Shown here piece by piece: positions 4,216 to 64,000 of a stretch of 64,000 bases of DNA. A model generated the notes under the pieces. It saw only the letters and a list, made by a program, of their open reading frames with translations. It had not been told where the DNA came from and searched no databases. The DNA is taken from assembly GCF_003477705.1 (NCBI RefSeq), contig NZ_QUDV01000006.1, positions 111,809 through 175,808 of the forward strand. Direction: 5' to 3'. The DNA comes from Dorea sp. AF36-15AT. GTDB taxonomy: Bacteria; Bacillota; Clostridia; Lachnospirales; Lachnospiraceae. The position numbers and the translations under genes were made by a program. Each line of letters starts with the position of its first letter. Position 1 is the stretch's first letter.

Positions 4216-5382
4216 ATGAAATATAATTTTGATGAAACAGGGGATCACAGGCAGGATGGATCGATCCGATGGGAACAGCCGAAAGGCAGAGACGATATCA
4301 TTGGAATGGGAACCGCAGATATGGATTTTACCTGTGCACCGTGTATACGGAAAGTACTGCAGCCAATCTGCGAGGAGAATACATATAATTACCGATTCAA
4401 GCCGGAGAGTTATTTTCAGTCTGTGATACGATGGTTTCGAGAAAACTATCAGTTAGATGTGAAGAAAGACTGGATGAGCAATGTGCCGGGAACGATCGGA
4501 GCGGTTCGTCTGGTTATGGAGAAATTCAGTGAAAAAGGTGATTATGTATTGATGCATACACCTTACTTCACTCCGCTCAGAAGCGCGATAGAGGCATCCG
4601 GAAGAAAGTTCCTGGGAAATGCTATGAAGCTTCAGGGTGGAAGATATGAGATTGACTTTGATGATTTTGAAAAAAAGATCAAGGAGTACAAGCCTTCGAT
4701 ATTTCTGCTTGTGAATCCGCAGAATCCGACTGGGCGTGTATTTACACAGGATGAGCTGAAAATAATGGTAGATATCTGTGCGGCAAATCAGGTGCGGATT
4801 ATATCCGATGAAGTACATTTTCTGATTACGTATGAAGATTATAAGCACATTCCGATTCTCGCTGTATCAGAGAAAGCCAGAGAGATTGCGATTCAGGTAT
4901 TCAGCTTCAGTAAAGGCTTTAACATCATGAGCCTTCCGCATGGAATTGTGTTTATTGCAAATGAGAAAATGCAGAAGGAATGGATGGATTATCTGATTCC
5001 ATATAGTTTTGCATATGCATCCAATTCTTATGCGATTGCAGCAGTAACAGCAGTGACTGGTGGAGAAGCGGATGACTGGCTGGAGCAGGTAACCGCATAC
5101 CTGACTGCCAACAGAGATTACTTTATCGAAGAAGTGAGACGAAGAAAACTGCCGATCACACCATTAAAGCCGGAAGCCAGTTTCCTGTTTTGGATTGATT
5201 GTAGAGAATCTGGTATTGATCCGGAAAAAGTAGATGAAGTATTCATGGAGCAGGCAGGAATTCAGCTGAATAATGGTCTGGAACATGGCGAAGAAGGACG
5301 TGGATTTGTCCGCATGAATTTTGCAGTGACCAGAGCAACACTGGATGCTGCTCTGGATAGAATAGAAAAAATATTTTTATAG
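4216..5382 (+). CDS. MalY/PatB-family PLP-dependent C-S lyase/aminotransferase
   Basis: A 388-residue fold-type I PLP enzyme of the MalY/PatB cystathionine beta-lyase group. The Schiff-base lysine is K233 (FSFSKGFN); N170 in NPQNPTGR and D198 in SDEVH are the usual cofactor contacts, and the N-terminal MGTADMDF is typical of the group. The expected reaction is beta-elimination from cystathionine or cysteine S-conjugates, giving a thiol, pyruvate and ammonia. It starts two bases after the NhaC stop, with GAGGAA as ribosome-binding site, so both are co-transcribed. The family overlaps with general aminotransferases, so the exact substrate is not settled. Confidence 0.85.
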   Translation: MKYNFDETGDHRQDGSIRWEQPKGRDDIIGMGTADMDFTCAPCIRKVLQPICEENTYNYRFKPESYFQSVIRWFRENYQLDVKKDWMSNVPGTIGAVRLVMEKFSEKGDYVLMHTPYFTPLRSAIEASGRKFLGNAMKLQGGRYEIDFDDFEKKIKEYKPSIFLLVNPQNPTGRVFTQDELKIMVDICAANQVRIISDEVHFLITYEDYKHIPILAVSEKAREIAIQVFSFSKGFNIMSLPHGIVFIANEKMQKEWMDYLIPYSFAYASNSYAIAAVTAVTGGEADDWLEQVTAYLTANRDYFIEEVRRRKLPITPLKPEASFLFWIDCRESGIDPEKVDEVFMEQAGIQLNNGLEHGEEGRGFVRMNFAVTRATLDAALDRIEKIFL

Positions 5383-6933: not shown

Positions 6934-8295
6934 TTGAAGAAGAATAAATATGAAATAGATATGTGCAATGGCACGATTATGGATAAGTTAATCTCATTTT
7001 CAGTACCGCTTATGGTGTCAGGAATTTTGCAGTTACTGTTTAATGCAGTAGATATTATCGTGGTAGGAAGGTTCAGTGGAAGTTGGGCATTGGCGGCGGT
7101 TGGTTCTACAACGGCGCTGATCAATGTGTTTACGAATCTGTTTATCGGCGTGTCGTTGGGAGCCAATGTACTTGCGGCCAGATTCTATGCTGCCGGAAGA
7201 GACCAGGAGATGTCTGAGACAGTACATACAGCGATCACATTTGCCCTGATCAGCGGTGTTGTAATGGCTTTCGTAGGATTAATCTGTTCCAGATATGCAC
7301 TGGAGATCATGGGAACGCCGGATGATGTCATTGAGCAGGCAGCATTATATATGAAGATATATTTTATGGGGATGCCATTTTTTATGTTGTACAATTATGG
7401 TGCGGCGATACTGAGAGCGGTAGGAGATACAAAGCGTCCATTGATGTTTCTTATTATATCCGGAGTGATCAATGCAATACTGAATCTGATCCTGGTTATT
7501 GCATTTCATCTGGATGTGGCGGGAGTGGCGATTGCTACAGCCATTTCCCAGATGATATCCTGTATTTTAATCCTGCGCTGTCTGTACAAGACGGAGAGTA
7601 GTTATCAGCTTAGATTTTCTAAATTGACGATCAGAGGTGTGTATTTGAAGCAGATCTTTCAGGTGGGCATTCCGGCCGGCATCCAGAGTATGGTCATCAA
7701 TCTGTCCAATGCGCTGCTGCAGTCATCAGTAAATTCATTTGGTTCTGTAGCAATGGCAGGTTATACAGCTGCAAACAATATTCTTGGCTTCTTATATATG
7801 TCTGCTAATGCAGTGACACAGGCATGCATGAGTTTTACCAGTCAGAATTATGGTGCGGGAAAGCCGAAGCGGATGGATCGTGTATTGATTGATTGTATGA
7901 TATTGTCCTGCGGGATACTGTTAGTATTAGGAACATGTGCATATATGTTTGGTCCGGAGATTCTGCGGATCTACACATCAGAGGCAGAAGTAATAAAAAA
8001 TGGCATGGCAATATTCTCATGTACCACAATTACGTATTTCCTGTGCGGAATCATGGATCTGTTCCCGGGAGCACTGCGTGGAATGGGATATTCAACAGTA
8101 CCGATGATATTGTCGGTGCTTGGTACAGTAGGAACCAGAATCGTGTGGATCTTTATGATCTTTCCATCACACAGAGCATTGGATCTGTTGTTCATTTCTT
8201 ATCCGGCATCCTGGTTTATCACAATTGTTATGCAGGTGATCTGTTACTGGTTTGTACGTAAGAAAGTGAAAATGAAATTTGTGGCACGGGCATGA
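6934..8295 (+). CDS. MATE-family multidrug/toxin efflux transporter
   Basis: A 453-residue integral membrane protein of the MATE (NorM/DinF) family with about 12 hydrophobic segments and the repeat pattern of two MatE halves (PLMVSGILQLLFNAVDIIVVG in the first, GIPAGIQSMVINLSNALLQS in the second). It would export organic cations using Na+ or H+ gradients. The start used is TTG 6934, because GGGAG (6920-6924) is nine bases upstream; the next ATG (6961) would remove nine residues. The stop overlaps the region leading into the serine dehydratase genes, so the three may be co-transcribed. The substrate is unknown. Confidence 0.88.
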   Translation: MKKNKYEIDMCNGTIMDKLISFSVPLMVSGILQLLFNAVDIIVVGRFSGSWALAAVGSTTALINVFTNLFIGVSLGANVLAARFYAAGRDQEMSETVHTAITFALISGVVMAFVGLICSRYALEIMGTPDDVIEQAALYMKIYFMGMPFFMLYNYGAAILRAVGDTKRPLMFLIISGVINAILNLILVIAFHLDVAGVAIATAISQMISCILILRCLYKTESSYQLRFSKLTIRGVYLKQIFQVGIPAGIQSMVINLSNALLQSSVNSFGSVAMAGYTAANNILGFLYMSANAVTQACMSFTSQNYGAGKPKRMDRVLIDCMILSCGILLVLGTCAYMFGPEILRIYTSEAEVIKNGMAIFSCTTITYFLCGIMDLFPGALRGMGYSTVPMILSVLGTVGTRIVWIFMIFPSHRALDLLFISYPASWFITIVMQVICYWFVRKKVKMKFVARA

Positions 8296-28708: not shown

Positions 28709-29866
28709 TTAGCGACAAATTTTTATCTTCTCAATTTCTAATCTCAGATCTTCCAGTGTACGGTGTAAGTACACTTTATTTGTTACATCGCCAAATGCAT
28801 GCCCAAGCATTAATTTTTTGCATTTCCAGTCTATCTTGTAATCATCACACAGCTTGCTGAATGTATGCCGACAGTCATGTGGTGTGTGCTGCTTCAATCC
28901 AAGTTCTGAAAGAGTGGAGGTCATCTGTTCGCGAAATTTATTAGGAGTGCATGGCAACAGAGTGCCTTCGCGGGATATTTTCTTTTCGACAAGTGGCATG
29001 ATCTCAGAGTGGATCGGAACGATCCGGTTCTTGCCTGCATCGGTCTTTAGCCCACCGAAGAAATATTTCTTTTCCAAGTTCACTTCCAAATCGATATATT
29101 CCGAGATCCGGAACCCGGAATAACACATGATTAATAACATTTCGGCTGTTGGGTGATCAGAGTGCTTCCAAAGTACCAGCAGATCATCGTCAGTGAATGG
29201 CACACCATGTTCGTCATCATCTGGGATTCCAATCTGTACATAATCGGAATACTTTTTGTCGCACAAGTCATTGGCATCGGCGTATTTGTACATCTGGTTG
29301 TACAGGTTTTTTACGAGCTCCAGAGAAGAGTGCTTCAATCCTTTTACCGTGTTGCAGTCATCCAGAACAGCTTGAAGATCATCTGTGGTCAGCGATCGGA
29401 AACTTTTGGAGTGTAGCTCTTCGCAGTTTTTAAATGCAGCGCGATAGCTGTTCTCAGATGACGTTCGCTTTTCTTTTTTGGTCGTATATTCCTTTTTAAA
29501 CTTCCATTGATAGAAATCCTTGAATACATCCTCGAATGTCTTCTGATCGGCAATCTCGCGCTGTGTCTGGGTGTACTTGCCGAGGATCGTGGCGATCATG
29601 TTATTCAGTTCGGCATTTCCGGATTCGGTCAGTTCTTTTTCCCTGCCAGGATAATACTCTCCGTGCTTGTACCAGGTAAGGACTGTGAAACCTTTATACC
29701 AGTCATCCACGTAGCAGAGGGCTTTCTGTGCCACCGGATTGCCGTCCTCATCGAATTTTTCTGTAGGAGGGTAAACTCCATAGGGGTTGGTTCTATTCTT
29801 GCCGGAAAGGCGCTTTATGGAGCCGTAGCCGTTTGGTAATTTTGGATGTTTCTTTCTTCGTGCCAT
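28709..29866 (-). CDS. int: Phage integrase (tyrosine recombinase)
   Basis: A 385-residue tyrosine recombinase. Catalytic residues are visible: R253 (CYSGFRISEY), K274 (GGLKTDAGK), H330 and R333 (HDCRHTF), H356 (LGHAF) and nucleophile Y366 (NKVYLHRT). The N-terminal part (about 1-110) has an AP2/arm-binding-like region followed by a SAM-like core-binding domain (about 110-205). It sits at the left prophage end pointing outward, the usual place for the enzyme that recombines attP and attB. A 14-bp palindrome lies just upstream. Confidence 0.95.
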   Translation of the reverse strand: MARRKKHPKLPNGYGSIKRLSGKNRTNPYGVYPPTEKFDEDGNPVAQKALCYVDDWYKGFTVLTWYKHGEYYPGREKELTESGNAELNNMIATILGKYTQTQREIADQKTFEDVFKDFYQWKFKKEYTTKKEKRTSSENSYRAAFKNCEELHSKSFRSLTTDDLQAVLDDCNTVKGLKHSSLELVKNLYNQMYKYADANDLCDKKYSDYVQIGIPDDDEHGVPFTDDDLLVLWKHSDHPTAEMLLIMCYSGFRISEYIDLEVNLEKKYFFGGLKTDAGKNRIVPIHSEIMPLVEKKISREGTLLPCTPNKFREQMTSTLSELGLKQHTPHDCRHTFSKLCDDYKIDWKCKKLMLGHAFGDVTNKVYLHRTLEDLRLEIEKIKICR

Positions 29867-57168: not shown

Positions 57169-59796
57169 GTGGCAGACGGCTATTTGAATTTTGATACAAA
57201 AATTAATGAAAAGGGATTCAACGAAGGAGTTGGCAAGCTAAGTAAACTTGGAAAATCCGGGCTGTCGATAGTATCTAAGGCAATGACCGGAGCTGTGGTT
57301 GCAGTTGGAACTGCTGCTGGCGCAATCATAAAGTCATCACTTGGCGTTGTTGCGAATATGGAACAGCAGGTCGGTGGTGTAGAAACCCTATTTAAGGATA
57401 GCGCGAATACAGTTATCGATAATGCTAATAGGGCGTATAAAACGGCAGGAATGTCTGCAAACAACTATATGGAAACTGTAACCAGTTTCTCGGCATCGCT
57501 GTTACAGAGCCTTGGAGGAGATACTGCGAAAGCAGCGTCTTATGCAGACAGGGCTATCGTGGATATGTCCGACAATGCAAATAAGATGGGCACAAGTATG
57601 CGTGACATCCAAAATGCTTATCAGGGTTTTGCGAAGCAGAACTATACCATGCTTGATAATTTAAAGCTTGGTTATGGTGGTACTCAAGAAGAAATGAAGC
57701 GGCTCGTTTCCGATGCAGCAAAACTTACAGATGTCCAGAAAGAACTCGGTGTTACAGTTGATGCCAACAGTCTATCCTTTGGAAATATTGTAAATGCTAT
57801 CAGCGTTGTGCAAAAGCAGATGGGAATTACTGGAACTACTTCGAAAGAAGCAGCGACCACGATTGAAGGTTCTGTAAGCTCTGCTAAAGCAGCTTGGGAA
57901 AACTTTGAAGCTGGAGTTATAAGTGCAAATGACCTTGTAGAGACATTCTGGACTGCAACACAGAACATTTTTACAAATTTAGGTCAGATCATTCCAAGAC
58001 TAGGAAAAACAGGGATAGATGTTGTTAGTGCGCTTGCTGGAAAAATTGGTGGCGCTGTTCCTCAGGTAAAAGGCTTCACTGATGCAATTGAGAGTATTGC
58101 TGACAAACTTGGCAGTATGGATACCGGACAACTTACGAATCTTGGTAAGATGTCCGCAGTTCTGATTGGAGCCGCGCCTGCGTTATCTCTAATTGGTAAG
58201 GGTGCCGGAACATTTTCTGATGCTCTTGGCGGACTAGGAAATGTCACTGGTGGGGCAATTACTGCTATTAGTAAGCTTCCCGGTACAGTGAAAAGCGCGT
58301 CTGCATCTCTTGGGAAGGCTGGAACAGCATTCAAGAATGTCGGTGATGCTATCGCATTGCCGTTCCAGGATCTCGCACCAAAGATTGCTCCGGCAATCAG
58401 TAAGTTGGGAGGATCTGTTTCCGAAATGTGGAATGCCGGTCCCGGTGGAAAGCTCACAAGTGCTGTTACACAGACAGCCGGAAAAGTAGGAGAGTCGTTT
58501 GCAAAGGTAGGTCCTAAATTAGCAGAGAAGTTTCCAACAATTACCGGTAAGGTCGGAGAGCTTGGGAAAAAGGTATCTGCAATCGTTCCGAAATTTGGAG
58601 CAGTTGGGGAAAAGATAGCTAGTTACGGTGGAGTGATCGGAGATTCGTTCAAGCCAATTCTGTCCAAGGCAGCTACATTTGCACCGGCATTCCTGAAATG
58701 CATGAACATTGCTGGAGGACTCGGTATTGTCGTAGCAGGACTCGGGCTCTTGCAGGGCGCGTTCGGTGATCAGATCGGACAGATCCTTACGATGGTCCAG
58801 ACAAAAGGGCCAGAGGTAATCACAAATTTCTGCAATGGAATTACAGCAGCACTTCCGAACTTGATTGCGCAGGGAGCTATGTTGCTTAACAATTTGTTAC
58901 AGGCAATTACAGCAAATCTGCCGGCTATCATTAGTGGTGGAATTTCCATCGTATCAACACTGATTTCTGGAATTGCACAACAGTTACCTACATTGATCCC
59001 GACAGCATTAATGATGATTGTTACATTGGTAGGATCGCTACTTTCCAATGTAGGTCAGATCGTGGATGCCGGTATCGACTTGTTGGTTGGTTTGGCGCAG
59101 GGATTGGTAAATGCATTGCCGCAGCTGATTAATCAGGCACCGACTATTATCGGTCAGTTGGCGACGGCGATTATTTCGAACCTGCCGAAAATCTTACAAG
59201 CCGGAATTAAGATCATCACAATTCTTGCGACCGGACTTGTACAGGCAATTCCACAACTGATCGGTAAGATTCCGGCTATCATTAGCCAGATCAAGAATGC
59301 ATTTACCAGTGTGAACTGGGGCAGTGTTGGAATGAATATCGTCAAAGGCATTGCCAGTGGATTAACAAATGCGGCGAAGAGCCTGGCAGATGCAGCGGCA
59401 AATGCAGCAAGTAATGCATTGGATTGGGTGAAGTCAAAGCTTGGTATTCACTCGCCGTCACGAGTATTCCGTGATCAGGTTGGTAAGATGATGGCTCTTG
59501 GTATGGGCATTGGATTCGAGAAGAATATTCCGATCAGATCCATGAGTGCAGGAGTTCAGAAAGCAGTATCCGGATTGCAGAGATCCGTAAATATTGCGAT
59601 GTCAGGCGGAGTTGACACACCGTCAGTAGACAAGTTAAAGAACCAGCCGGGATTTGATGACAAAGGTTTAATTGATTATGACCGTTTGGAGAAAATCCAG
59701 ATGAGAGCTGCAGAAAAAATGGCGAAGCGTCCAATTTTCCTTGGAACCAAGAGGATAGATGAACCATTGCCGAAAGGAGCGGTGCCGGCATTATGA
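57169..59796 (+). CDS. Tail tape measure protein
   Basis: An 875-residue tape measure protein with a GTG start. The N-terminal region has MEQQVGGVETLFKDSANTVI and GMSANNYMETVTSFSASLLQ, typical of the TMP core; central hydrophobic stretches (about 520-720) are probable membrane-active helices; near the C-terminus is the common KLGIHSPSRVFRDQVGKMMA. Its length would set a tail of roughly 120-130 nm by the usual about 1.5 A per residue rule. Confidence 0.93.
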   Translation: MADGYLNFDTKINEKGFNEGVGKLSKLGKSGLSIVSKAMTGAVVAVGTAAGAIIKSSLGVVANMEQQVGGVETLFKDSANTVIDNANRAYKTAGMSANNYMETVTSFSASLLQSLGGDTAKAASYADRAIVDMSDNANKMGTSMRDIQNAYQGFAKQNYTMLDNLKLGYGGTQEEMKRLVSDAAKLTDVQKELGVTVDANSLSFGNIVNAISVVQKQMGITGTTSKEAATTIEGSVSSAKAAWENFEAGVISANDLVETFWTATQNIFTNLGQIIPRLGKTGIDVVSALAGKIGGAVPQVKGFTDAIESIADKLGSMDTGQLTNLGKMSAVLIGAAPALSLIGKGAGTFSDALGGLGNVTGGAITAISKLPGTVKSASASLGKAGTAFKNVGDAIALPFQDLAPKIAPAISKLGGSVSEMWNAGPGGKLTSAVTQTAGKVGESFAKVGPKLAEKFPTITGKVGELGKKVSAIVPKFGAVGEKIASYGGVIGDSFKPILSKAATFAPAFLKCMNIAGGLGIVVAGLGLLQGAFGDQIGQILTMVQTKGPEVITNFCNGITAALPNLIAQGAMLLNNLLQAITANLPAIISGGISIVSTLISGIAQQLPTLIPTALMMIVTLVGSLLSNVGQIVDAGIDLLVGLAQGLVNALPQLINQAPTIIGQLATAIISNLPKILQAGIKIITILATGLVQAIPQLIGKIPAIISQIKNAFTSVNWGSVGMNIVKGIASGLTNAAKSLADAAANAASNALDWVKSKLGIHSPSRVFRDQVGKMMALGMGIGFEKNIPIRSMSAGVQKAVSGLQRSVNIAMSGGVDTPSVDKLKNQPGFDDKGLIDYDRLEKIQMRAAEKMAKRPIFLGTKRIDEPLPKGAVPAL

Positions 59797-60578
59797 TAAA
59801 GGCATATTATAAAAATAGTAAAGGAGAGGTGCTTTGGTTGACCAAGGCGCCTTTTCGTACTGTTGAGGCTGATTGGTTTGACAGTACGTGGGAAGAGACA
59901 GAGGACGGTTATGAAAAGGTAGTTACCTTAGATGTCTTTGGAAAGAGAATGGAGTTCGTGCAGAACATGGAAACTCTGTACAGAATCATTTCTGTAGACG
60001 CTGAGACGGGCAAATACGGACGTTTGTATGTGAATGATACATTCTTACCATGCCAGATTTACAAGACCAAGAAAACAGGATGGAAGGGGTATGTGTATAC
60101 GGAAGTGGAGCTCACATTCCTTGCACCGGAGTTGTCGTGGATCACAGTTCTGGAGAAGAGGTTTTATCCGCAAACAGAACCAGTTGCAGTAAGTGGATTA
60201 GATTTTCCTACGGATTATCCATTTGAGCTTGTGGAAGAAAAGCGAGGATCTGGAGTGTTTGAAATTGATCACATTATTCCATCAGATTTTGAAATGGTGA
60301 TCTACGGTCCATGTTCAAATCCAAAGGTGTTGATCAATGGGTATCCTTATGAGATTTTAACCACATTGGAGAAAAATGAGTATCTGATATTAAATACGCT
60401 AGAAGAGACAATCACGAAATATCTATCCAATGGCATGACAGCGAATTTGTTTAATGCCAGAGGATATGACTATTCCGTATTTGAACAGATACCACCCGGA
60501 TTAATATCTGTGAATTGGAGCGGAGAGTTTGGAGTGGATCTGTATATCTTTCTGAAGCGGAAGGAGGCAGCATGGTAA
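59793..60578 (+). CDS. Distal tail protein (Dit)
   Basis: A 261-residue Dit-type protein, overlapping the tape measure gene by ATGA. RIISVDAETGKYGRLYVNDTF and YVYTEVELTFLAPELSW fit the N-terminal ring domain. It joins the tail tube to the baseplate and overlaps the next gene by seven bases. Confidence 0.87.
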   Translation: MIKAYYKNSKGEVLWLTKAPFRTVEADWFDSTWEETEDGYEKVVTLDVFGKRMEFVQNMETLYRIISVDAETGKYGRLYVNDTFLPCQIYKTKKTGWKGYVYTEVELTFLAPELSWITVLEKRFYPQTEPVAVSGLDFPTDYPFELVEEKRGSGVFEIDHIIPSDFEMVIYGPCSNPKVLINGYPYEILTTLEKNEYLILNTLEETITKYLSNGMTANLFNARGYDYSVFEQIPPGLISVNWSGEFGVDLYIFLKRKEAAW

Positions 60579-61573
60579 TACTAGCAACGCATCAAAGAGA
60601 GATTGGCAGTAATCCACTGAAGAGAGCCAACTGTACCTTCGACGTGAACGGGGAAATGAAGTTCTCCGTGAAGATTGCCCGGAGCTATTGGACTAAAGAT
60701 ATGACATATGGGAATCTGGTGTACATTCCGGATACGGAGTATGGCGGGATCATCGGCAAGGTTCTTACCAGTACAACACTGGATTACGTGGAACTGAAAG
60801 GTTACACCTGGCGCGGAAGATTGGCATACAAAGCCATTGAGCCGCCATCCGGAAGGGATTATAAGGTTGTGTCAGGAGAACTCAACAAGGTACTCAAAGC
60901 ATTGATAGAGCCGGAATTTGATGGATTATACGTGGTATCCAGTGAAGATACAGGCGTATCTGTAAGTAATTATCAGTTTGATCGGTATTGCACGTTGTTG
61001 GAAGGTGTCACGAAGATGCTGACTTCGGTTGGATATCGGCTGGATATTCAGCACAAGCGGGAGAAGGGCGTTCCGGGGTATGTTTTGATCAGAGCAATTC
61101 CAATCGTAGATTATTCTGATCAGATTGAATTGTCCAAAGACTGTGGATTGAATTATACGATGGAAGACATTCGAGATGGAGTTAATCATCTGATCGTCAC
61201 CGGCAAAGGGGAATTGCAGGACAGAAATGTATTTCACCTGTATGCTTGGCCGGATGGGAGTATTAAAAAGACTCAGTATTACACCGGACTGGATGAGATT
61301 GTCCAGGTCTACGAGAACACATCCACTGAGACAGATCAACTGGAAGACCAGTCACTTGATAAGTTGACTGAGCTGATGAGTAAGAAGAAATTCAGCATGG
61401 ATGTGGAGAAGCTTGGCATTGATGTAGGTATCGGAGATATCGTTGGCGGACGAGATTACCTTACTGGTATGTATGGAGCAAAGCCTATCGAGAACATTAC
61501 CTGCAGCGTAATTGCAGGAGTAACATCGAAAGAATATGAATTGAAAGGAGAAAATGACGATGGAGATAGTTAG
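60572..61573 (+). CDS. Gp37-like tail protein (siphovirus ReqiPepy6 family)
   Basis: A 333-residue baseplate protein starting at ATG 60572 behind AAGGAGG. CTFDVNGEMKFSVKI, YVELKGYTWRGRLAYKAIEPP and DCGLNYTMEDIRDGVNHLIV match the Gp37-like tail hub family, which replaces the Tal endopeptidase in many Firmicutes siphophages. It overlaps the receptor-binding protein gene. Confidence 0.85.
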   Translation: MVILATHQREIGSNPLKRANCTFDVNGEMKFSVKIARSYWTKDMTYGNLVYIPDTEYGGIIGKVLTSTTLDYVELKGYTWRGRLAYKAIEPPSGRDYKVVSGELNKVLKALIEPEFDGLYVVSSEDTGVSVSNYQFDRYCTLLEGVTKMLTSVGYRLDIQHKREKGVPGYVLIRAIPIVDYSDQIELSKDCGLNYTMEDIRDGVNHLIVTGKGELQDRNVFHLYAWPDGSIKKTQYYTGLDEIVQVYENTSTETDQLEDQSLDKLTELMSKKKFSMDVEKLGIDVGIGDIVGGRDYLTGMYGAKPIENITCSVIAGVTSKEYELKGENDDGDS

Positions 61574-62525
61574 TGGAAGAACCGGAAGCCCGCATGTGAC
61601 AAGTCAACAGTTCAGGCAATTTGTCGAGGGAACAGTTGGACAGGAGAGTTATATTCTAACATCCGGTGAAAATTTAGAACCGGAACTTGCGTCGAATAAT
61701 ATATTGAAGATTCGAAGCGGTATGATGAGTCATCATGGAAATATTTCCAGTATAAAAATTGGAACTTATGATGAGGTGGAACTGACTAATGGTAGTCAGG
61801 GAATGAAGCGCATTGACCTAGTGGTGAATCGGTATACAAGGAATGCTGAGACGAATGTTGAAGCAAATAATTGGGTAGTTATTACAGGAACGCCAGCGGC
61901 GTCTGATCCAGCTGTGCCGGCATATACTGTTGGCAATTTGCAGGAGGGAGATTTGACTGATGATTGCCCGGTATTTGAAGTGCATTATGACGGATTGAAT
62001 GTCACAGAGATCAAAAAGCTATTGGATGTAGCTGATAATTTGGGGAAGATGAAAAAAGAGCTTGCTGAATTAAATGGCAAGATCAATCATAATTCCAACA
62101 AGCACATTCTGATCGGCAAATGGAGCAGTGCATGGAATCTTTCCGATACTGCCAAAAATATCGGATCTAAAAAAGCCGCGATTGATAACGAATACTATAA
62201 GACCACCACCGGAGCGGATTCTGCCGTGACCGTCAAAAAGTCTGGGTTGTACTACGTATCAATGTATGCGCAGGGATCAGCTGCTTCCGGTGCATCGGCA
62301 TCCATACAGGCACAGGTTGTAGCAAGTGCCACAGTAGTAGATGATGCATACGTCCTGTTTGGAGCTGGCTATTCCTATAATGGATTAAGTGCGAACATCA
62401 ACATTGGGCGCGTAGTGTTCCTACAAGCTGGAACAGTGCTCACGCCACAGCTTAAGAAATCCTCGGCATCTGGAGCTGCGTCAACCACAGGAAGCTCTTA
62501 TATGGAGGTTGTGCATATTTATTAA
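61560..62525 (+). CDS. Receptor-binding/baseplate protein, expressed allele of an inversion switch
   Basis: A 321-residue protein. ATG 61560 is nine bases after AAAGGAG and gives the family start MEIVSGRTGSPHVTSQQFRQ; ATG 61554 is too close. Residues 1-170 form the conserved baseplate-attachment part ending in a coiled-coil-like linker (VADNLGKMKKELAELNG). Residues 174-321 form a separate C-terminal beta domain (GLYYVSMYAQGSAASGASAS ... MEVVHIY), probably C1q/TNF-like and receptor binding. The 13-bp recombination site lies at the codons for E-L-N-G (residues 170-173). The stop overlaps that of the silent alternative C-terminus on the other strand. Confidence 0.85.
   Translation: MEIVSGRTGSPHVTSQQFRQFVEGTVGQESYILTSGENLEPELASNNILKIRSGMMSHHGNISSIKIGTYDEVELTNGSQGMKRIDLVVNRYTRNAETNVEANNWVVITGTPAASDPAVPAYTVGNLQEGDLTDDCPVFEVHYDGLNVTEIKKLLDVADNLGKMKKELAELNGKINHNSNKHILIGKWSSAWNLSDTAKNIGSKKAAIDNEYYKTTTGADSAVTVKKSGLYYVSMYAQGSAASGASASIQAQVVASATVVDDAYVLFGAGYSYNGLSANINIGRVVFLQAGTVLTPQLKKSSASGAASTTGSSYMEVVHIY
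62068..62080 (+). repeat. Left inverted repeat of the tail-protein switch
   Basis: AATTAAATGGCAA, in frame as E-L-N-G-K in the receptor-binding gene. Its exact reverse complement is at 62823-62835. Confidence 0.8.
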
Positions 62526-62833
62526 GATAAGGTTATTGCACCAGCCGGTGAATAGTAGAGCAGTCCTGTAATCCGAAAGCGTCCGTTGACATTCTTGTTG
62601 AATACAGCGTATAGATTCTCACCTTGCCAAGTTACGCCCTCAGCATGTAAAGAGTCAGCATTTCCGTCTCCATTCATGATGACGGCTCCTGAATTTTGCG
62701 GAGTAGCATCTGTTATCCCAAACAACGAATTGATCTTTGTAATGGTGGTTATCAATGCACTGGAGTTACCAGTTCCATACGGAGTCATTGTGAAAGAAAT
62801 GAACCGGATATTGTTCGCATAATTGCCATTTAA
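62522..62833 (-). pseudogene. Silent alternative C-terminal segment of the receptor-binding protein
   Basis: The minus strand is open from the repeat (LNGNYANNIRFISFTMTPYG...) to a stop at 62522-62524, 103 codons without its own start signal; an internal Met at 62788 has no good ribosome site. The sequence (GAVIMNGDGNADSLHAEG, FRITGLLYYSPAGAITLS) looks like a folded beta-rich domain and is unrelated to the plus-strand C-terminus. It is a silent cassette, not a decayed gene, and becomes expressed only after inversion. Confidence 0.78.
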
Positions 62834-62835
62834 TT
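62823..62835 (-). repeat. Right inverted repeat of the tail-protein switch
   Basis: TTGCCATTTAATT on the plus strand, i.e. AATTAAATGGCAA on the minus strand, where it reads L-N-G-N in the silent C-terminal frame. It is identical over 13 bp to 62068-62080 and the match stops abruptly on both sides. Confidence 0.8.
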
Positions 62836-62856
62836 AAGGAAGCGCTTGGCGAAAAT

Positions 62857-62886
62857 GCTACACTCAAATAAAAAAAGGAGTGTAGC
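62857..62886 (+). promoter_or_regulatory. Hairpin covering the recombinase ribosome-binding site
   Basis: GCTACACTC (62857-62865) pairs perfectly with GAGTGTAGC (62878-62886). The Shine-Dalgarno sequence AAAAGGAG (62873-62880) lies in the loop and the 3' arm, just before ATG 62889, so the mRNA can hide it. This could keep recombinase translation low. Confidence 0.5.
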
Positions 62887-62888
62887 AG

Positions 62889-63875
62889 ATGGAACAAAAG
62901 ATTATGGAAGTAATGAGAAGAATGCAGGACATATTGTCAAAAGAACAGCTTCGAGAATTGCAGTCAGCTCTCAGAGTTACGTTTAATGGATGCGAGCTAC
63001 AGCCAAGAAGTGAGCTGATGGTGCTGGATGACAGTTGGAATGGTGATTTGGAAGACTTTCTGATGTCCAAGGCTCTGGAAGGGAAGAGCCAGGCGACAAT
63101 CATCCGGTATCGGTACGAACTGGAAAGATTGTTAGCGTACATCAACAAGGCAGTAATTGATATTACAGATTCGGATATATCGAATTACATGAGGGTATAC
63201 AAGAGAATCCGGAACATTAAAAACAGCACTCTTAAAGGTGTGCGGTCGATATATAGCAGTTTCTTTTCGTGGCTGCGTGATCGAGACCGGATCCGAAAGA
63301 ATCCGATGGTGTTGGTGGAAGACATTAAGGTTCCGATCAGGGTGAGAGAACCGTTCACTGATGCAGAACGGGAGAAACTTCTGAGAGAATGCCGAACGCT
63401 TCGGGATAAGGCTATGATGGAATTTCTATATTCCACAGCTGTCAGAGTCGGAGAATTGGTAAAGCTGAACCGGGGCGACATCAGATTTTCCACAAAGGAT
63501 CTGATTGTATGTGGTAAAGGCGACAAGGAACGAGTTGTTTATTTGAATGAACGTACTCACATGTACCTGTTGGAATATCTGGAGAGTCGAACAGATACAA
63601 ATCCGGCACTGTTCGTGTCATTGCGATCGCCGCACAAGAGGCTGACAGATAAGGGCGTGGAAGATATTGTTCGTAGGACCGGCAGAAGAGTTGGCGTGAA
63701 AGCGTACCCGCATAAGTTCCGAGGTACATCAATTACCAATGCTCTCAATAGAGGAATGCCATTGCAGGAAGCATCCTGTATGGCAGGTCATGTCAAATCA
63801 GACACAACATTAAGGTATGCTCAACTGGATCAGGATTCAGTGAGATACCATCACAAGAAATATTTAAGTGCATAA
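62889..63875 (+). CDS. XerC/D-like tyrosine recombinase, probable tail-protein invertase
   Basis: A 328-residue tyrosine recombinase with SAM-like N-terminal core-binding domain (about 50-140) and catalytic domain. Catalytic residues are R186 (STAVRVGEL), K210 or K213 (CGKGDKERVV), H275 and R278 (YPHKFRGT), H301 (MAGHVKS) and Y310 (TLRYAQL). It is not closely similar to the prophage integrase at 28709. It lies 53 bp after the right inverted repeat of the switch, a typical invertase position. ATG 62889 is eight bases after AAAAGGAG. An alternative role in excision or dimer resolution cannot be excluded. Confidence 0.88.
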   Translation: MEQKIMEVMRRMQDILSKEQLRELQSALRVTFNGCELQPRSELMVLDDSWNGDLEDFLMSKALEGKSQATIIRYRYELERLLAYINKAVIDITDSDISNYMRVYKRIRNIKNSTLKGVRSIYSSFFSWLRDRDRIRKNPMVLVEDIKVPIRVREPFTDAEREKLLRECRTLRDKAMMEFLYSTAVRVGELVKLNRGDIRFSTKDLIVCGKGDKERVVYLNERTHMYLLEYLESRTDTNPALFVSLRSPHKRLTDKGVEDIVRRTGRRVGVKAYPHKFRGTSITNALNRGMPLQEASCMAGHVKSDTTLRYAQLDQDSVRYHHKKYLSA

Positions 63876-63955: not shown

Positions 63956-64000
63956 TTATGCGCTTTTATATAGTAACTATTAACTTTAGATTCAAAGGAG

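Follow-up and report, generated by a model that had tools for sequence, protein, structure and literature searches.

A probable receptor-binding-protein shufflon in a siphophage-type prophage of Dorea sp. AF36-15AT

Near the end of a 64,000-nucleotide stretch of contig NZ_QUDV01000006.1 from Dorea sp. AF36-15AT (the window), two short inverted repeats bracket different C-terminal coding segments on opposite strands, the first of them inside a prophage tail-protein gene, which raises the question of whether this gene is switched by DNA inversion between alternative ends. A first-pass annotation made from the sequence had proposed a frame-preserving inversion switch in a prophage receptor-binding protein (RBP). 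We found that the locus is very probably an RBP shufflon, a site-specific inversion switch with exchangeable heads, and we put the probability of this reading, which draws on sequence comparison, at nearly nine in ten. It rests on the repeat geometry and the shared codon phase, on natural proteins that represent the alternative state, on relatives in which the segment is inverted, on the predicted RBP fold, and on silent heads that lack start signals. In the proposed mechanism, the RBP gene (61554–62525) would encode a fixed shoulder (residues 1–172) and an exchangeable head; the recombinase at 62889–63875 would act on short inverted sites (core AATTAAATGGCAA, Leu-Asn-Gly) and flip the intervening segment, and the flip would let the shoulder be translated into either head without a frameshift.

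The core AATTAAATGGCAA is a 13-bp perfect inverted repeat with exactly two copies in the 64,000-base window (sites 1 and 2 in Table 1), as compared to 0.00 copies expected by chance from 100 dinucleotide shuffles; after ungapped extension the arms are 25 nt long and 88% complementary. Both copies read Leu-Asn-Gly in the same codon phase. The RBP open reading frame (plus strand, 323 aa; an in-frame ATG at 61560, giving 321 aa, is the start in most database relatives) reads through the first repeat as L-N-G, and the minus-strand frame from site 2 opens with LNG-NYANN and has 101 aa after LN (62522–62827). With the count starting at the Asn codon of the site, the C-terminal frames are 150 and 102 codons long and lie tail to tail, with stop codons that overlap in TTAA (62522–62525). 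The first-pass description of 13-bp inverted repeats around two opposite-strand C-terminal domains, in the same phase and with overlapping stops, is confirmed in the sequence.

Table 1. Positions of the switch, its recombinase, and neighbouring prophage features in the window.
Feature	Position	Strand	Basis or remark
Prophage integrase, a different tyrosine recombinase	28709..29866	-	PF00589, phrog_1
Tape measure protein	57169..59796	+	phrog_58 and others
Distal tail protein Dit	59793..60578	+	phrog_33
Tal-position protein upstream of the RBP (minor tail protein in PHROG)	60515..61573	+	phrog_538
Constant N-terminal part (shoulder) of the RBP gene	61554..62067	+	PHROG 25635/9994 over the protein; likely start ATG 61560
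Inversion site 1	62068..62080, extended arm 62056-62080	+	Core AATTAAATGGCAA, Leu-Asn-Gly in the RBP gene; junction for all C-terminal clusters
Cassette C1, head currently in frame	62081..62525	+	TNF/C1q-like jelly roll predicted
Cassette C2, silent head	62522..62822	-	Open frame from site 2, without start signal
Inversion site 2	62823..62835, extended arm 62823-62847	-	Site 1 sequence in inverted orientation
Xer-like tyrosine recombinase, probable invertase	62889..63875	+	Pfam PF00589, E 1.2e-27
AAAGGAG, probably where the outer arm of site 3 (second bank) starts	63994..64000	+	Comparison with the site-3 arms of 21 relatives

The element is best read as a siphophage-type prophage at the window end, to which the integrase belongs, and its tail genes follow the order tape measure, Dit, Tal-position protein, RBP, and recombinase. 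The IMG/VR record 2840399886_000004 (G001), which is 35,291 bases long, matches the window without difference across 61554–63875 and spans 28709–63999 by offset. A scan of viral contigs with the tail protein recovered no more than the window's own phage and a single relative at 68%. A second prophage record from the same genome (L002 / L118, IMGVR_UViG_2840399886_000001) carries the same 13-bp core pair with other heads, and its recombinase is 96% identical; its silent C2 head clusters with heads carried on the window-type N-terminus (P0078, P0079, and P0086).

Natural proteins provide the alternative state. A protein search seeded with the tail protein produced 4,168 matches, of which the best 120 were analysed. 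Residues 1–172 are at least 90% identical in 85 of these 120, and the C-termini of the 85 relatives with the shared N-terminus fall into 19 clusters and two very short ends; two of the 19 clusters are truncated copies of others, which leaves about 17 different domains among the best 120 of the 4,168 matches. The C-terminal clusters begin at LNG[K/N], which is the repeat, and an alignment of 18 relatives shows near-complete identity up to LNG and a collapse beyond it. For example, in protein P0062 the N-terminus of the window (98.2% over 170 aa) continues at LNG into the silent domain (92.1% over 101 aa); this metagenomic protein, with 23 member sequences and 2 contigs, is evidence of the fused product rather than of the flip itself. 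Searching with the silent domain by itself returned 71 proteins. The domain is present at 74% identity or more in 17 proteins; in 16 it forms the end of a 266–290 aa protein whose N-terminus ranges from 98% down to about 23% identical to that of the window, and the seventeenth carrier is a 182-aa protein without a match to the window N-terminus.

The tail protein is predicted to be an RBP by its fold, as the predicted structure of the shoulder is that of the RBPs of lactococcal phages p2/1358. The head of the in-frame state was modelled with low confidence, as was the alternative-state protein P0062 (mean pLDDT 50), whose model gave no match against the PDB at E <= 0.001. A sequence search for solved-structure relatives of the tail protein found none.

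One could also suppose that the minus-strand domain is an independent gene with its own expression, a point on which the first-pass annotation had made its proposal depend. A bare ATG open reading frame of 88 aa does lie inside the domain (62522–62788), but the first 35 codons of C2 hold no Shine-Dalgarno sequence plus start codon, as had been claimed. Such a signal was found in 1 of 68 silent cassettes as compared to 22 of 30 recombinase starts; moreover, the minus-strand frame starts at the site and in phase, and the domain occurs as the end of full-length proteins. On the start-signal counts, an independent gene was set aside, and we regard it as barely credible.

To describe the family, we listed the sites at 29 loci whose recombinases are at least 53% identical, window included. 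An upstream site pair with tail-to-tail cassettes lies beside the recombinase at 24 of the 29 loci (bank 1). The five loci without a listed upstream pair are L059, whose upstream partner at -1257 lies further away than the 1,100 bp that the site search reached, L021 and L030, where the contig ends, and L025/L056, which have a variant core. Behind the recombinase, a second pair (bank 2) is present at 21 of the 26 loci that continue more than 800 bp past it; among the other five, L025/L056 (two records of one locus) have a variant pair, and none was found in L024, L029, and L030. These three have a related recombinase and are possibly reduced two-state forms, L029 with bank 1 only. The second pair starts about 100 bp after the recombinase gene, or about 0.9–1.1 kb after it in L059 and L026. 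When 73 loci, including less similar ones, were scanned for repeats only, no clear repeat pair was seen near many of the more distant recombinase relatives.

Whether the inverted orientation ever occurs among related phages was a further point raised by the first-pass annotation. The reverse-strand comparison gave 95 matches, many of which merely reflect opposite gene order, and 14 chosen pairs were inspected. In L007/L012, bank 1 is inverted at 87%, with 5.4 kb upstream collinear at 93%, the recombinase at 90%, and the downstream part collinear at 98%. Bank 1 is also inverted in L005/L012 (85%; upstream 93%, recombinase side 97%, and only 73% just behind bank 2) and in L081/L084 (99.5%; recombinase side 80%, and upstream of bank 1 only 144 bp at 75%). 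Bank 2 is inverted in L005/L010 (89%; recombinase 93%, downstream 74%) and in L006/L107 (97.7%; recombinase 94%, downstream 76%), bank 2 of L008 is bank 1 of L010 in inverted form at 99.3%, and both banks are exchanged and inverted in L083/L084 (99.7% and 93%; recombinase collinear at 97%, no match upstream of bank 1). Some of the 14 chosen pairs showed no inversion, namely bank 1 of L006/L010 (same orientation), L010/L012, and L082/L085. Together with P0062, which is the other state, these inverted segments support the proposed frame-preserving switch. Loci L081–L085 form a more distant group with the same layout, recombinases 36–37% identical, and the core CTAAATTCTGA.

The same data bear on the idea that heads are swapped by homologous recombination or horizontal transfer and that the repeats are mere conserved joints, with no programmed inversion. 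Heads are common to loci with different N-termini, and some inverted pairs have unlike flanks; L081/L084 and L083/L084 differ upstream, which leaves room for a contribution from transfer between phages. However, the segments inverted exactly in place, with collinear flanks, in L007/L012 and other pairs, the tail-to-tail cassette pairs with inverted sites beside the recombinase at 24 of 29 loci, and outer site differences in L005/L012 that do not move while the cassettes change sides make this explanation very improbable as compared to site-specific inversion.

Nearly all the sites keep the reading frame across the family. We tested 93 sites in 27 loci with recombinases at least 53% identical (sites hand-chosen from the site listing; L001/L018/L020, the window's own phage, and L025/L056, one locus from two collections with a variant core, were left out), and 89 of the 93 have an inward frame of at least 70 aa in the shared phase, as compared to 1 and 0 in the other phases. 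The four that fail are site 1 of L004, where the next phase is open, one site each in L026 and L029, and one in L030 at a contig end. Some of sites 2–4 in L004, L005, L006, L010, and L012 read TTAATAAAATAGCAA, within which an in-phase TAA would terminate the tail gene, and site 1 there is GAATTAAATAGCAA. Between L005 and L012, the outer site differences are fixed in position and the cassettes have swapped sides, which we read as placing the probable strand exchange within about AAATAGCAA. The core differs by recombinase group (TTAAATRGCAA here, CTAAATTCTGA in the distant group, and CGGCCATTTG in Bifidobacterium loci) and is common within one locus.

Which enzyme would carry out the inversion? 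As the first-pass annotation had stated, a second tyrosine recombinase lies just downstream of the repeats. It is a 328-aa, Xer-like, phage-encoded protein separate from the integrase, with which it aligns at 20% identity, and serine-type inversion was set aside because it belongs to the tyrosine family (PF00589). Residues R186, K210, H275, R278, H301, and Y310, which we take to be the tyrosine-recombinase catalytic set, are invariant across 11 aligned relatives. The NCBIfam XerA/C/D models match the protein only below their cut-offs, and its length, together with models covering residues 54–325 only, suggests that it has no arm-binding domain. We infer that this recombinase is the enzyme for the inversion and that it is probably active in this strain. 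Alternatively, the inversion could be real and be driven in trans by the recombinase of the second prophage, or by a host Xer-like enzyme. Cross-action is plausible given the 96% identical enzyme and the same 13-bp core in the second prophage record, but cores that are common within a locus and differ between recombinase groups are expected of cognate pairs, and the catalytic set of the local enzyme is intact; a trans-acting enzyme as the explanation is thus quite improbable.

Close relatives of the recombinase in named genomes (L021–L030) are mostly from Lachnospiraceae. At about 40% full-length identity, enzymes are found among hsdS genes in Ligilactobacillus and Lactococcus plasmids and in Bifidobacterium. 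Relatives amid type I restriction hsdS genes are found in L121 (4001–4969), L122 (3986–4978), and L045, a Bifidobacterium locus where the relative lies beside HsdS and HsdM genes. One enzyme family appears to serve restriction specificity and phage tail heads alike.

The first-pass annotation had spoken of a simple two-state switch; relatives, however, usually carry four cassettes in two banks. A strict two-state switch would have two heads only and a window end unrelated to a second bank. A single bank is visible in the window, and L024, L029, and L030 lack the second one though the contig runs on. Against this stand the second bank at 21 of 26 loci, its variant in L025/L056, and the position at which the window ends. 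The window, L002, and L004 stop 128–162 bp after the last sense codon of the recombinase. The second prophage's record closes with the same 59 nt as the window, and both stop at the same base, where the outer arm of site 3 would start; an AGGA[G/A] word is found at this start in 12 of 21 relatives. The IMG/VR record of the window's own phage stops one base before the window end. We read these coincident ends at the site-3 arm as an assembly break. L004 runs, at about 7100–7149 and right inside its site-3 arm, into what resembles sequencing-adapter sequence.

Among the best matches listed, the longest contig measures 1,140–1,299 bp, roughly the spacing between sites 2 and 3, in 34 of the 120 best recombinase clusters as compared to 2 of 119 tail clusters (tail row P0032 has no value), an indirect indication that fits assemblies breaking at the sites. 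Because a second cassette pair stands behind the recombinase at 21 of 26 loci, the two-state description is probably incomplete. A strict two-state switch was set aside as the likelier reading; we consider it unlikely, and a second bank is presumably present in this phage beyond the window.

In the wider family, the unit would thus have the form site1> C1 C2 <site2 - recombinase - site3> C3 C4 <site4, and combinations of inversions, some of them turning the recombinase round, could put any of the four heads in the gene. Three loci, L023 (a complete genome), L026, and L060, have the tail gene on the opposite side and strand with respect to the recombinase; hence the recombinase-bearing piece turns as well. 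The fused genes of L023 and L060 match PHROG tail families, as does the neighbouring paralogue in L026, and L026 and L060 have a lysis amidase on the minus strand upstream of the recombinase. We favour, with clear reservation, a broader reading in which Lachnospiraceae siphophages carry a four-state shufflon as a plug-in unit, with a self-inverting recombinase from the hsdS-invertase family flanked by two banks of paired heads, a Leu-Asn-Gly/Ser joint to unlike distal tail proteins, and a shared stock of dozens of heads that pass between phages. The window would most likely be the left half of such a two-bank unit, cut off by the assembly break, and the two prophages with the same core could swap heads. 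Different heads may bind different hosts, in which case the inversion would switch host range.

The nearest described counterpart is Rin, a shufflon found in prophages of Bifidobacterium (Bb423phi1 and two others). It is reported to have an XerD-like tyrosine recombinase apart from the integrase, a constant 168-residue RBP N-terminus related to the phage 1358 RBP, C-termini of 95–100 residues, and 11-bp repeats, with inversions seen in sequencing reads (PMC6109161). A similar Rin locus in Eggerthella lenta clade 1 prophages is described in another report (PMC8778435). Rin, as described, and the present locus both combine an XerD-like tyrosine recombinase separate from the integrase, a gut siphophage, C-terminal parts of roughly 100 residues that are exchanged at short repeats, and a constant RBP N-terminus (168 residues in Rin and 172 here; related to 1358 there and matching the 1358 fold here). 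In contrast, the variable genes of Rin, as described, sit together in a single block that separates the constant gene from the recombinase, and the 11-bp repeat is TTCCCTAACCC, while here two tail-to-tail pairs flank the recombinase (21 of 26 loci), the core is AATTAAATGGCAA, and the phages are of Lachnospiraceae type. The Rin flips were, by that account, read directly, whereas the present switch is known from comparing sequences, and the enzyme is likened to Rin by description. Bifidobacterium relatives of the recombinase (L040, L041, L043–L047, and L051) were considered as Rin. None of the nine loci examined (these eight plus L042 from Eggerthellaceae) contains the published repeat TTCCCTAACCC, and L045, the only one scanned for families, has HsdS and HsdM, so this link was dropped.

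Other systems share single features. Inversions around prophage tail fibres are reported for four Proteobacteria (PMC5903667), and, in another study, only one of three isoforms of the Gin-type tail-fibre shufflon of Enterobacter phage FRphi infected the tested strain (PMC13418256). As in Gin/Cin/Min and FRphi, inversion here would exchange tail-fibre C-termini, and FRphi is a functional precedent for a role in host range; unlike here (PF00589), the recombinases of those systems are, as described, serine recombinases. Inversion systems of hsdS also use tyrosine recombinases, e.g., PsrA of Streptococcus pneumoniae (PMC7096588). The resemblance to the present locus lies in the enzyme family, represented by the hsdS-associated relatives at about 40% identity, and, in L. 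salivarius and L. cremoris, in hsdS pieces on both sides of the recombinase; the target here, unlike in hsdS systems, is a tail protein behind Dit and Tal, and PsrA is likened by description. The R64 shufflon has the tyrosine recombinase Rci, multiple inverted sites, and the plasmid pilus adhesin PilV. It is comparable by description in its multiple sites, its tyrosine recombinase, and one constant N-terminus with several C-termini; its target, a plasmid pilus adhesin, is different.

Since Rin is the closest described system, the switching principle is already known, and what differs is the cassette arrangement, the site sequence, and the host group. The first-pass remark that such switches are little described held in part. 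Rin (Bifidobacterium and E. lenta) was the sole tyrosine-recombinase RBP shufflon found in the literature searched, whose scope left out most subscription papers, but this kind of shuffling in gut siphophages had been reported in 2018 under that name (PMC6109161). Lachnospiraceae hosts, a two-bank layout with the recombinase inside, and heads common to unlike tail proteins were not found in that literature. Our results would extend RBP switching by tyrosine recombinases from prophages of two actinobacterial genera to gut phages of Firmicutes, with the recombinase inside the shuffled unit, and fixed-site inversion together with heads common to unlike tail proteins offers a handle on the diversification of phage host recognition.

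These loci also carry a warning for annotation, as assemblies can break at inversion sites and silent heads resemble stray small genes. In L006, site 1 is surrounded by a nearly duplicated stretch of about 138 bp that contains an N (5062–5230), which may reflect a collapsed or mixed assembly there. In L026, the gap between the recombinase and the second bank holds two small minus-strand open reading frames (7149–7731) that by eye resemble a RelE/RelB-type toxin–antitoxin pair.
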